A DNA stretch of 35,012 nt from Nitrospirota bacterium (lineage in GTDB: Bacteria; Nitrospirota; Thermodesulfovibrionia; Thermodesulfovibrionales; SM23-35): contig JBFMCL010000004.1 in NCBI GenBank assembly GCA_040754395.1, positions 1 to 35,012 on the forward strand, given 5' to 3'. A program made the translations under genes and the position numbers. Each line of letters begins with the position of its first letter. Position 1 is the stretch's first letter. Positions 20,963-24,784 of the stretch are shown here, piece by piece. Below the pieces are notes generated by a model. It saw only the letters and a list, made by a program, of their open reading frames with translations. It was not told the DNA's origin and did no database searches.

Positions 20963-21187
20963 ATGCCCGTCGTATTACTTGATGCGCAGGGGTTAAAGTG
21001 CCCCCAACCGACAATTCAGATGACAATAAAGGCGTTGAAACTAAAGAAGGGCGAGGTGCTTGAGGTTGTCGCAGACTGCTCGACATTCGAAAATGATGTC
21101 AAGAACTGGTGCCGACGCAATAACAAGACTCTCTTATGGATTAAAGACGAGGGAGAAGGTGTGAAAAGGTGCCAAGTACAGTTCTAA
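20963..21187 (+). CDS. TusA/SirA-like sulfur carrier protein
   Basis: A 74-aa protein with the TusA-family core DAQGLKCPQP, whose Cys13 in CPxP would carry persulfide sulfur. The family relays sulfur for tRNA thiolation, molybdenum cofactor synthesis or dissimilatory sulfur metabolism, and some members act with membrane proteins. Compared with TusA, the C-terminal half is unusual (NDVKNWCRRNNKTLLWI) and has a second Cys. A perfect GGAGG lies 7-8 nt before the ATG. The next gene's GTG start overlaps its end by 19 nt, so it is coupled to a binding-protein/kinase system rather than to tRNA genes. The exact role is uncertain. Confidence 0.82.
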   Translation: MPVVLLDAQGLKCPQPTIQMTIKALKLKKGEVLEVVADCSTFENDVKNWCRRNNKTLLWIKDEGEGVKRCQVQF

Positions 21188-22497
21188 AAAGCGACGCTTC
21201 TATTCCAGAAAACCATGTGAACAGAAATACCCTCGCCGTATTGTTTTCCAAAGTGTTCCTTATCGTGCGCAGTCCCCTGAATATCCTGATTTTCCTCTGT
21301 TCGCTCATGTCGCTTTTCCCGGAGAATATTCGTGCAGAATCCATCCATGTCGGCATGTCTGCTGCATTCAAGGGCGCAACAGGCGGGCTTGGGAATGAAT
21401 TATACAGAGGATCAATGGCTTATATTGAGCACATCAACAGATCAGGTGGCGTCAATGGGAAAAAAATAATAATAACTGCATATGATGACGGATATAATCC
21501 CATCCCGTGTATAGAAAATACAATTCGTCTGATAGAAAATGATAACGTCTTTCTCCTTTTTGATTATGTCGGCACACCTACAGTAACAAGAATACTGCCT
21601 ATCCTGAAAAGCTATAGTGACAGACATATCTACCTCTTTTTTCCGTTTACAGGAGCGCAACCTCACAGACAATACCCTTATGATGCCTTTGTTTTTAATC
21701 TGCGCGCGTCGTACCATCAGGAAACTGAAGGCCTTGTCAACAATCTGGTAAAAGTAGGAATAAAAAAAATCGCTGTATTCTATCAGGCAGATGCATACGG
21801 AAGGAGCGGATGGAACGGTGTCCGAATGACCCTGGCAAAATATGGTCTAAAAATTGTCGGTGAAGCGACATATAAGCGCGGGACAAAGTACTCCGAAAGC
21901 CTCAAGCAACAGGTGGATATACTCAAAAAGTCAGGAGCTGATGTAGTGATATCGATCGGCGCTTACGCTGCCTGTGCTGCGTTCATTCGAGATTCAAGGA
22001 ATGCCGGATGGGATGTGCCCATTGCCAATGTATCTTTCGTCGGCAGCGAGTTCATGATCAATCTCCTTCTCAGGGAAGGGAAAGCAAAAGGAAAGGATTA
22101 CACCTTCAATCTTCTGAACTCACAGGTTGTGCCGAGTTACGAAGACCTGTCTCTCCCTGCAGCGAGAGAGTACAGGGAGTTAATGGATAAATACAATCCC
22201 CGTCTTCCTCTTGACATATCTGGAGAAGATTACGTGCCGCTGAAATACAGTTTTGTGGGTTTTGAAGGTTTTCTCAATGCGAAAGTCCTTGTTGAAATAC
22301 TGAAGAGAATGGAAGACAAAATAGAGCAGTCGAGAATAAAAGAAGTTGTTGAGGGAATAAAAAACCTGGATATCGGAATTGATGAGAGAGTTTCTTTCGG
22401 TCCTGAAAAACATCAGGGACTCAACAAGGTCTTTTACACAATATATGAAAACGGGCGTTTTATCCCCATCAGGGACTGGAACAGGTGGCGCAAATGA
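21169..22497 (+). CDS. Type-1 periplasmic (branched-chain amino acid-like) substrate-binding protein
   Basis: Belongs to the Leu/Ile/Val-binding (Peripla_BP_6) fold. Typical segments are IHVGMSAAFKGATGGLGNELYRG, split here around the mature start, then YIEHINRSGGVNGK, FYQADAYGRSGWNG and GADVVISIGAYAACAAFIRD. A hydrophobic segment (about 36-50) followed by RAES gives a Sec-type signal with cleavage near residue 57. The GTG at 21169 has GAGAAGG upstream, but a later GTG (V-R-S-P-L) would give a more ordinary signal peptide, so the start is uncertain. No ABC permease or ATPase genes are near. It overlaps the histidine kinase by 4 nt (ATGA), suggesting it senses a ligand for the kinase. The ligand is unknown. 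Confidence 0.82.
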   Translation: MPSTVLKSDASIPENHVNRNTLAVLFSKVFLIVRSPLNILIFLCSLMSLFPENIRAESIHVGMSAAFKGATGGLGNELYRGSMAYIEHINRSGGVNGKKIIITAYDDGYNPIPCIENTIRLIENDNVFLLFDYVGTPTVTRILPILKSYSDRHIYLFFPFTGAQPHRQYPYDAFVFNLRASYHQETEGLVNNLVKVGIKKIAVFYQADAYGRSGWNGVRMTLAKYGLKIVGEATYKRGTKYSESLKQQVDILKKSGADVVISIGAYAACAAFIRDSRNAGWDVPIANVSFVGSEFMINLLLREGKAKGKDYTFNLLNSQVVPSYEDLSLPAAREYRELMDKYNPRLPLDISGEDYVPLKYSFVGFEGFLNAKVLVEILKRMEDKIEQSRIKEVVEGIKNLDIGIDERVSFGPEKHQGLNKVFYTIYENGRFIPIRDWNRWRK

Positions 22498-24380
22498 TAA
22501 TGTCGAAGCTTTTCAAAAAGACCCTCATCATCATCATAGTCCTTTTTGCCATTATCAGCATTACCATCGCCTTATCATCGGGATGGAATCTTTATAATGA
22601 CCTGATACAGGAATACAAAAGCAAGGGCACAGCGATAGCAAAAAGCATAGCAAATTCAAGCGTCGATACACTCCTGAACAGGGATGCCTCAACAGTGCAG
22701 GCAATGATTGACCAGTTTCTTGAGATAATGGGCGTGTCGTACGTCTTTGTTGTGGATTCGCAGGGAGAGATCATTTCTCATACCTTTGTTCCCAACATAC
22801 CCGAAGAAATATTGGATATCAAAAATGAAAAAACTAAATCGGTGTCAAAGATCCAGGACTTGTATGTTGAAGGAAGAGGAAATTTTATCGACATTTCTTC
22901 TCCGATACTTGAGGGTGCCTTCGGATTCGTACATGTGGGCATGGACAAAGGCATCATTATGTCACAGATGAAATCTGCAATGATCAGGCAGCTGTACCTT
23001 CTTGCCATCATATTTGTCATAAGCATCTTCATCGCGTATATTCTTGTAAACAGAGTTTCGCAACCATTGAACAAACTGACTGAATACTCCAAGAAACTCG
23101 CGTCTCACGACTTTTCGTCCGCGGTTGATATCAAATCCGATGATGAGATAGGACTTTTGGCAGATACCATGAAATCAATGGCTACTGACCTCCATGAGGT
23201 ATTTGACAGATATGAACAGGCCATTAACGACGCAATAGTTGAACTCCAGAATACCCTCGCATATCTTACCGCTGTCATTGACAATATGGCAGACGGGCTC
23301 CTTGTGACTGATACAGACGGCGTGATTACCCATGTCAATCCAGCCCTCTCTTACATGTTTGCACTCAAAGAGACCGACCTCATAGGAAAAAACTGCAGAG
23401 ATATTTTCGGTTCAAATGTCAGTGACCTTGTGAAAAAAACAAGGGGGTTTTCAAACGATATTTATACCTCGGAACTTGTACTTGCCCGTAATAAGATAGG
23501 CAAGGCGGTTGCCACCGGCATACATAAAGATGCATTTGAAGGAGACGATAAGGGAATCGGGTCGGTAATTCTGATACGGGACATCACCTCTGAAAAAGAA
23601 GTCGACCGTATGAAAACGGATTTCATTTCAACGGTATCACATGAATTAAGAACACCTCTGACCTCTGTCCGTGGCTTTACCGAAATTATCAGAAAAAAAC
23701 TCGATGAAGATATTTTCCCCCTGCTTATAGAGGTAAAGAATAAAAAAACGAAGAATTCGATATATCGGGTCAGAGAAAATCTTGAGATTATCCTCTCTGA
23801 AGGAGAAAGACTGACCGCACTGATCAATGATGTGCTTGACATATCAAAACTGGAAGCAGGGAAAGTCGAATGGAAAATAGACAGATTCAGGGTATCCGAT
23901 GTCATTGACCGTGCACTGGTGGCCACTTCAGCCCTTTTTGAACAGAAACATCTCGAGTTCACAAAAGTCATCGAGCAGGATTTGCCAGAGGTTTACGGTG
24001 ACAAGGACAAGCTTATACAGGTTATCATCAATCTCCTCTCCAATGCGGTCAAGTTCACCGACAAGGGATTTGTTCATTGCATTACGAAGAAAGTCGGGAA
24101 TGAACTTATTGTAAGCATTATTGATACGGGTATCGGCATATCGGAGGCGGACAAGGATAAGGTCTTCGAAAAGTTCAGGCAGGCCGGGGATACTTTGACC
24201 GAAAAACCGACTGGGACCGGTCTTGGCCTCTCCATCTGCAAACAAATCATTGAATACCATAGCGGGCGCATATGGGTTGAAAGCGAGCTCGGAAAGGGAA
24301 GCAATTTTTCGTTTACTCTCCCTTTGAATTTGAAAGAAGGTGTGAAGATATATGACCACTCTTTGGTTGTCAAAGAATAA
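22494..24380 (+). CDS. Membrane sensor histidine kinase (HAMP-PAS-HisKA-HATPase)
   Basis: Numbered from the ATG at 22494, which overlaps the previous stop as ATGA and has AGGTGG five nt upstream. TM1 is about 10-28. A periplasmic Cache-like domain (about 30-164; VSYVFVVDSQGEIISHTF) follows, then TM2 at about 166-186, HAMP to about 238 and a PAS domain (about 255-370; DNMADGLLVTDTDG). HisKA has the phosphoacceptor H383 in VSHELRTPLTS. The ATPase domain has N-box INLLSNAVKF, G1 DTGIGIS and G2 GTGLGLS. All catalytic motifs are intact. It lies between a binding protein and a receiver protein, so the periplasmic domain likely contacts the liganded binding protein. A GTG at 22485 is a less likely start. 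Confidence 0.92.
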   Translation: MIMSKLFKKTLIIIIVLFAIISITIALSSGWNLYNDLIQEYKSKGTAIAKSIANSSVDTLLNRDASTVQAMIDQFLEIMGVSYVFVVDSQGEIISHTFVPNIPEEILDIKNEKTKSVSKIQDLYVEGRGNFIDISSPILEGAFGFVHVGMDKGIIMSQMKSAMIRQLYLLAIIFVISIFIAYILVNRVSQPLNKLTEYSKKLASHDFSSAVDIKSDDEIGLLADTMKSMATDLHEVFDRYEQAINDAIVELQNTLAYLTAVIDNMADGLLVTDTDGVITHVNPALSYMFALKETDLIGKNCRDIFGSNVSDLVKKTRGFSNDIYTSELVLARNKIGKAVATGIHKDAFEGDDKGIGSVILIRDITSEKEVDRMKTDFISTVSHELRTPLTSVRGFTEIIRKKLDEDIFPLLIEVKNKKTKNSIYRVRENLEIILSEGERLTALINDVLDISKLEAGKVEWKIDRFRVSDVIDRALVATSALFEQKHLEFTKVIEQDLPEVYGDKDKLIQVIINLLSNAVKFTDKGFVHCITKKVGNELIVSIIDTGIGISEADKDKVFEKFRQAGDTLTEKPTGTGLGLSICKQIIEYHSGRIWVESELGKGSNFSFTLPLNLKEGVKIYDHSLVVKE

Positions 24381-24400
24381 TTTATATTGAGGTTTATGAA

Positions 24401-24784
24401 ATGCCTAAAGTTCTGATAGTTGACGATGATCCCATAATAAGGAATCTTCTTACCCAGATTCTTGAACCATTTGAAGACAGAGGAGTCCGTTTGCTAACAG
24501 CAGAGAACGGTCTTTCCGCAATTGATATCGCGAGAAAGGAAAATCCCGAGATCATTTTTCTCGATGTCATGATGCCCAAGATGAACGGCTTTGAAGTCTG
24601 CAACTTAGTGAAAAACGACGCGGTAATGAGAAAATGCTGTGTCATTATGGTTACTGCAAAAGGACAGGAACTGGACAGACAGAAGGCAACGGGGGTCGGC
24701 GCAGATTTCTACATAACAAAGCCCTTCAATATCTATGAAATAATTACAAAAGTCGGGGAGATTCTGGGCATCGATTCTTTCTGA
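24401..24784 (+). CDS. Stand-alone response regulator receiver (CheY-like)
   Basis: A 127-aa receiver with no output domain. The acidic pair follows LIVDDD, the phosphoacceptor is D55 (FLDVMMP), T85 lies in MVTAKG and the conserved K107 in ITKPF. GAGG lies 8 nt before the ATG and the gene starts 20 nt after the kinase, so it is almost certainly the partner of that kinase. With no DNA-binding domain it must act by protein contact or phosphorelay; it cannot itself drive the RpoN promoter upstream. Convergent with the M16 peptidase gene. Confidence 0.92.
   Translation: MPKVLIVDDDPIIRNLLTQILEPFEDRGVRLLTAENGLSAIDIARKENPEIIFLDVMMPKMNGFEVCNLVKNDAVMRKCCVIMVTAKGQELDRQKATGVGADFYITKPFNIYEIITKVGEILGIDSF

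Follow-up and report, generated by a model that had tools for sequence, protein, structure and literature searches.

A substrate-binding protein paired with the Cache-HAMP half of its neighbouring histidine kinase: evidence for a probable ligand-sensing unit in Nitrospirota and other phyla

What does a substrate-binding protein do when it is encoded beside a histidine kinase and has no transporter of its own? The question is raised by a locus in a 35,012-nucleotide stretch of Nitrospirota DNA (GenBank assembly GCA_040754395.1, contig JBFMCL010000004.1, positions 1 to 35,012; hereafter the window), in which a Peripla_BP_6 binding-protein gene runs into the gene of a membrane sensor histidine kinase. 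A first-pass annotation made from the sequence alone had proposed that the protein is a ligand sensor. The open reading frames and Pfam matches bear out the gene order it described, with a 4-nt overlap between binding protein and kinase and a lone receiver behind them. The receiver was said to have no output domain and indeed matches only Response_reg, and the neighbourhood is free of a permease or ATPase as claimed, since the window has no BPD_transp_2 or ATP-binding cassette (ABC) gene. The description of three genes was thus correct, but it overlooked a TusA-family gene upstream and the kinase's own sCache sensor domain. We consider it probable that the binding protein serves solely to sense a ligand in the periplasm, and that it docks on this Cache domain, in principle as in LuxPQ, and switches the kinase toward the receiver. 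The proposal that the protein senses a ligand for the kinase and is not a transport component is strongly supported by its strict co-inheritance with the sensor half of the kinase.

This co-inheritance becomes apparent when comparing related genomes. The binding protein is present at 60% identity or more in 20 of 121 such genomes (the window's included), and the kinase gene lies directly downstream in all 20 orthologous loci, with TusA upstream in 19 and the receiver gene in all but one. When kinase residues 1-245 were used in turn to search these 121 genomes, exactly the same 20 came back at E-values of 1e-48 or better, each match adjoining the binding protein; the next Cache match beyond them has 29% identity (E 1.7e-27). 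Two close orthologues from a 396-genome sample of the phylum (L198 and L202 in our locus numbering) also have the kinase half, and the pairing therefore holds for every close orthologue retrieved. These 20 genomes are related and hence do not stand for 20 independent events. The arrangement is not due to chance given its conservation across several families, where it is kept at 60-78% protein identity. The neighbouring genes differ from family to family, with mutS/purC and a peptidase next to the cassette in the window's own family and with ferredoxin/HdrA and isochorismatase in f10, so the cassette is conserved as a unit and not through general synteny. Binding proteins at 33-41% identity are mostly without a Cache-HAMP partner, and several adjoin chemotaxis receptors and che genes; the signalling role of this branch may be older, judging from these relatives. 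Loci L060, L063, L064 and L065 have distant Peripla_BP_6 relatives (35-38%) in chemotaxis clusters beside receptor, CheW, CheR and CheA-type genes.

A wider search gave a second line of evidence. The binding-protein alignment was used to scan 84,980 species genomes, which yielded 337 relatives, and the best 80 of these 337 were kept. The 80 loci were obtained through exact peptide seeds, which biases the sample to close relatives; they come from about 12 phyla and are mostly metagenome-assembled genomes. The two sets of genome labels overlap in part (L070 is G250 and L085 is G321) and were not summed. The Cache-HAMP half is present in 79 of the 80 loci and lies directly downstream in 76-77, while in L111 and L121 it is divergent from the binding protein and within about 3.5 kb. 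Overlaps of 4, 13 or 22 nt between the two genes were seen in 48 loci. The region past about residue 235 is what varies, and several different output domains are found there (five loci cut by contig ends are left out of the output counts). Besides HisKA/HATPase and hybrid kinases with receivers or Hpt, the outputs include SpoIIE phosphatases (L086, L098, L113 and L136), MCPsignal (L093 and L101), a class III nucleotide cyclase (Guanylate_cyc, L124), PAS with a sigma-54 activator (Sigma54_activat in L130, and L144 by similarity) and GAF/PAS (L106).

The binding-protein tree, which was made by a quick method, is unrooted and has several long branches, separates these signalling loci from a clade tied to a major facilitator superfamily (MFS) carrier with 98% SH-aLRT support, and the output label requires at least seven changes on it. 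Distances between binding proteins and distances between Cache halves correlate within the two clades with r of 0.87 and 0.88, compared with 0.29 and 0.32 for the best of 1000 shuffles; so strong a correlation within clades is what co-inheritance would give. Positions identical in both clades (at least 95%) number 85 in the binding protein and 19 in the Cache half, which suggests a shared ligand or interface. With one and the same pair joined to differing machinery, these patterns point to the binding protein and the Cache-HAMP half as a portable sensing unit.

Features of the cassette in the window (positions on the 35,012-nucleotide stretch)
Feature	Position	Strand	Basis
TusA-family sulfur-carrier gene, 74 aa	20963..21187	+	Pfam TusA, E 5.9e-16, 58.5 bits vs cut-off 28.6
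Peripla_BP_6 substrate-binding protein	21169..22497	+	Pfam Peripla_BP_6, E 1.7e-41, 143 bits vs curated cut-off 31.7
Membrane sensor histidine kinase, 628 aa	22494..24380	+	Pfam sCache_3_2, HAMP, PAS, HisKA, HATPase_c
Cache-HAMP half (kinase residues 1-245), conserved partner module of the binding protein	22494..23228	+	found beside the binding protein in relatives
Stand-alone receiver, 127 aa	24401..24784	+	single Pfam Response_reg, E 4.1e-28, no output domain

The N-terminus of the binding protein is an export signal region, with the mature part beginning at about residue 55. The kinase is ordered transmembrane helix (TM), sCache, TM, HAMP, PAS, HisKA and HATPase_c, and its first half consists of TM1, the sCache domain at residues 33-161 (sCache_3_2, E 4.4e-12), TM2 and HAMP at 184-235. 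The phospho-acceptor His383 lies within SHELRTP and is invariant in 18 orthologues. The receiver keeps its phosphorylation residues, with D9, D55 and K107 invariant and D8 and T85 nearly invariant in an alignment of relatives. Some start codons were assigned mechanically. In the window, the kinase ATG gives the 4-nt overlap with the binding-protein stop (22495-22497), an alternative GTG at 22485 would give 13 nt, and the GTG start of the binding protein gives a 19-nt overlap with TusA, with a later GTG at 21217 also possible.

The AlphaFold model of the binding protein has a confidence (pLDDT) of 93 and a pTM of 0.92, and its nearest solved relatives are 4kv7 from Rhodopirellula (Z 47, 30% identity) and 3lop (Z 43). 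We obtained no ligand information for these two structures; among the ligands of proteins with a related fold are amino acids, urea, aromatic acids and 2-oxo acids. The model of the Cache half (pLDDT 82) has a fold like the sensor domains of WalK, CitA and DcuS, and more weakly that of LuxQ (3c38, E 3.1e-4). The Cache domain has a strongly conserved HTFxPxxP stretch together with Q69, D73 and Y83, a possible pocket.

In the mechanism we propose, the binding protein would capture a small ligand in the periplasm and, in its ligand-dependent state, would dock on the kinase's single Cache domain. Docking would alter the conformation of the Cache-TM-HAMP part and so shift how the kinase acts on the stand-alone receiver, as kinase or as phosphatase. 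The receiver in turn may hand the signal to a partner whose gene lies elsewhere, through protein contact or phosphorelay. We infer the physical docking, its ligand dependence and the direction of the signal, the docking because of the co-inheritance and the exchange of modules. As a principle the stimulation of receptors by binding proteins is already known: it is established for kinases, chemoreceptors, cyclases and Ser/Thr kinases, and receptor-stimulating binding proteins are regarded as widespread yet largely unexplored (PMC9602780).

In 36 of the 80 loci the Cache protein stops after HAMP, with a length of about 245 aa when its start is unambiguous. All 36 of these output-less loci carry an MFS gene 61-74% identical to that of L132 and none of the other loci do (Fisher p 3e-22, with kinship among the loci uncorrected). 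The MFS gene scores 331 bits against a cut-off of 320 for the model of SfMCT, an L-lactate carrier whose Y119, N276 and R280 bind the substrate or set its position and are required for transport (PMC6573034), and the equivalents of these residues are kept in all 34 sequences that cover them. It is possible, and we put it forward tentatively, that in this sister clade the pair without an enzyme acts directly on the OFA/lactate-type carrier, by gating or by substrate hand-over, which would make it an MFS transport system that depends on a binding protein and has a sensor-type adaptor in the membrane, with the window's kinase cassette as its signalling counterpart. The claim of a binding protein without a transporter stands for the window's locus but not for the family, in which the sister clade goes with an MFS transporter. 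From the lactate/oxalate-family carrier we would weakly infer a small carboxylate as the ligand. The flanks in the MFS clade, examined for a clue to the ligand, show amidohydrolase and aminotransferase genes recurring solely in one Binatia subgroup and allow no conclusion. Binding proteins in this clade often have a twin-arginine-like N-terminal motif (about TRRxxLRxGL; L114, L117, L119, L122, L129 and L145), which suggests export by the twin-arginine pathway, unlike the window's protein.

Several points weigh against a dedicated sensor. One of the 80 loci, L088, has the binding protein without a Cache partner. Adjacency is also no proof of stimulation, because three substrate-binding proteins encoded near the AgtS and AruS kinases of P. 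aeruginosa gave no sign of activating them (PMC11113362). By analogy with CitA and DcuS, the Cache domain could bind a ligand alone. Lastly, the window's genome has a complete LivHMGF set without an adjacent binding protein (L067, at C1:53-57 kb). This set could be served by our protein, which has the fold of transport binding proteins of the LIV type, and the protein would then belong, as substrate subunit, to an ABC transporter whose other genes lie elsewhere, its link to an independent kinase being one of co-transcription alone. We hold this to be very improbable. The genome's LIV-type permease sets are three, on contigs C1, C9 and C21 and not on the window's C4; the C9 set has an adjacent binding protein and the C21 set one a few genes off, while an unpaired classical LIV-type lipoprotein binding protein on C2 (L006, 7068-8201, between thiE-like and pfkA-like genes) may serve the C1 set. 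A matching ABC permease and ATPase co-conserved with the binding protein would speak for transport, and we checked for one: in ten Thermodesulfovibrio-like (f10) genomes with the cassette, a binding protein of its own adjoins the sole LIV permease pair, and no LIV permease is unpaired. In these genomes, then, the cassette has no co-conserved ABC partner, and an unpaired ABC partner is disfavoured as an explanation. Additionally, the LIV binding-protein family model NF011933 gives 48.4 against a cut-off of 477, neither the window's gene nor its close orthologues have a permease as neighbour, and the same binding protein adjoins SpoIIE, MCP, cyclase and sigma-54 outputs. The binding protein therefore falls outside LivJ/LivK and has no dedicated transporter, with a small doubt left by the unpaired set. 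In the C21 set (L005, C21:40.8-41.6 kb) LivH is apparently split into two frames, and radical-SAM-like and other genes separate the permeases from the binding protein; the C1 set is divergent from a pair of histidine kinase and NtrC-type regulator genes.

If the Cache domain did sense the ligand directly, the binding protein would concentrate or deliver the ligand, or inhibit when empty. The likeness to the carboxylate-binding domains of CitA and DcuS and the possible pocket described above would suit this arrangement, which we nevertheless judge unlikely: wherever this Cache type occurs the binding protein is present, and the uneven distribution of conserved positions, 85 to 19, is a better fit to docking than to delivery. 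Rather unlikely, in our estimate, is also that the unit is primarily one of transport, the original being a binding protein with a Cache-HAMP adaptor and an MFS carrier, from which the kinase form derived with loss of the carrier. This would account for the MFS gene beside every output-less Cache protein and nowhere else, for the two clades of binding proteins and for the retained SfMCT residues. However, the tree is unrooted and the direction of change is therefore not readable from it, and a search of the order to which the window's genome belongs for an orthologue of the OFA carrier found only generic relatives of about 30% identity, which leaves the kinase as the sole candidate output at this locus. 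The dedicated sensor acting through the Cache domain is thus the reading that we prefer.

The gene upstream may offer a hint to what the cassette's response acts on. TusA is kept with the binding protein in 20 of 22 Nitrospirota loci (the 20 from related genomes together with L198 and L202), with 82-93% identity among 17 orthologous loci, while two others have 58-59%. Its CPxP motif (C13-P14-Q15-P16) is invariant in 20 sequences; three further cysteines (C39, C50 and C70) are invariant too, and the invariant columns number 34 of 74. The Pfam match and the Cys-Pro-x-Pro motif place it in the TusA family; its score does not reach the NCBIfam cut-off of either TusA proper or YedF. The 19-nt overlap with the binding-protein gene recurs in most Thermodesulfovibrio-like genomes. 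In this group TusA is preceded by an HdrA-like gene that overlaps it or directly adjoins it. TusA-like proteins are known as partners of thiosulfate import, and sulfur transfer to regulators has been proposed for them without proof (PMC11582611). The presence of TusA and HdrA in the gene run suggests sulfur transfer, which we treat as a lead only; that the response in Nitrospirota touches sulfur metabolism can be weakly inferred from TusA and the frequent HdrA. For this phylum, a connection of an outside ligand to the sulfur-transfer genes of a TusA/HdrA run is then open to testing. In one Thermodesulfovibrio-like genome (L046, 1748-5485 and 13540-16030) a molybdoenzyme set resembling polysulfide/thiosulfate reductase and several rhodanese-like genes lie on the flanks of the cassette.

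Relatives of the receiver point to candidate partners downstream. In two Nitrospirota loci (L061 and L062) a close relative of the receiver follows a GAF/HD-GYP protein in which the HD and HHExx(D/N)GKGYP motifs are intact, and in two Symploca loci a close relative comes after a GAF/cyclase protein that shares the N-terminal part. In L054/L077 the genes that follow code for a second kinase and for a regulator of NtrC-like look. All of these neighbours are plausible receiver targets. A search of the window's genome found no close orthologue of the GAF/HD-GYP protein (best 36%), and counterparts of the other candidates were not searched for. The genes concerned (L061 11431-12801, L062 3841-5244 and the 469-aa genes of L090/L092) combine a shared N-terminal part and GAF with an HD-GYP phosphodiesterase in Nitrospirota or a class III cyclase in Symploca, and a lone receiver adjoins every one of them.

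Judged against the open-access literature that we searched, what is new is a binding-protein/Cache pair that stays the same through exchanges of its output, the TusA-linked kinase version of the pair, and its link to an MFS carrier when the output domain is absent; no description of a binding protein tied to an OFA/MFS carrier was found there. With the pair intact and the output swapped several times, this is a clean evolutionary case in which the docking interface could be read from conservation. A further question that it poses is whether an MFS carrier can be controlled or supplied by a binding protein together with a Cache-HAMP protein.

Comparison with known systems helps to place the cassette. 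The sister-clade MFS resembles SfMCT and the OFA lactate transporters in its score and retained substrate residues but differs from SfMCT at pocket positions L145, Y331, F359, C362 and H250, and a carrier of this type is absent from the window's locus. With the branched-chain amino acid binding proteins LivJ and LivK the window's protein shares the fold and the Pfam family, but it is below their family cut-off, has no permease and lies beside a receptor-type membrane protein. In the GlnH/GlnX system (with PknG) of Corynebacterium a binding protein acts via a transmembrane protein without a recognised output domain, much like the stand-alone Cache-HAMP members (PMC9769921). GlnX, however, has unrelated helical receptor domains, and its partner is a Ser/Thr kinase and not an MFS carrier or a histidine kinase. 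TorT/TorS, which senses trimethylamine N-oxide and which the first-pass annotation had taken as its model, is alike in having a binding protein with an adjacent sensor kinase and no dedicated transporter. TorS, a hybrid kinase, senses through a helical domain and signals to TorR, whereas the window has a Cache kinase and a receiver without output; the TorS model TIGR02956 gives 193.1 bits against a whole-length cut-off of 676.5, with its best stretch in the kinase core. The likeness therefore holds as a loose analogy but does not extend to the sensor, a single Cache domain related to CitA, DcuS and WalK and less so to LuxQ. LuxQ itself is not matched over its whole length either (NF041947, 175.6 bits against a cut-off of 1200, kinase core only), LuxP is a member of another binding-protein family, and the window's kinase is not a hybrid but pairs with a lone receiver. 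In its overall design the cassette is nevertheless like LuxP/LuxQ, the autoinducer-2 (AI-2) receptor of Vibrio, in that a periplasmic binding protein is joined by a membrane histidine kinase with a PAS/Cache-fold periplasmic part, a domain type that the window's kinase shares by its sCache_3_2 match and its fold match to 3c38.

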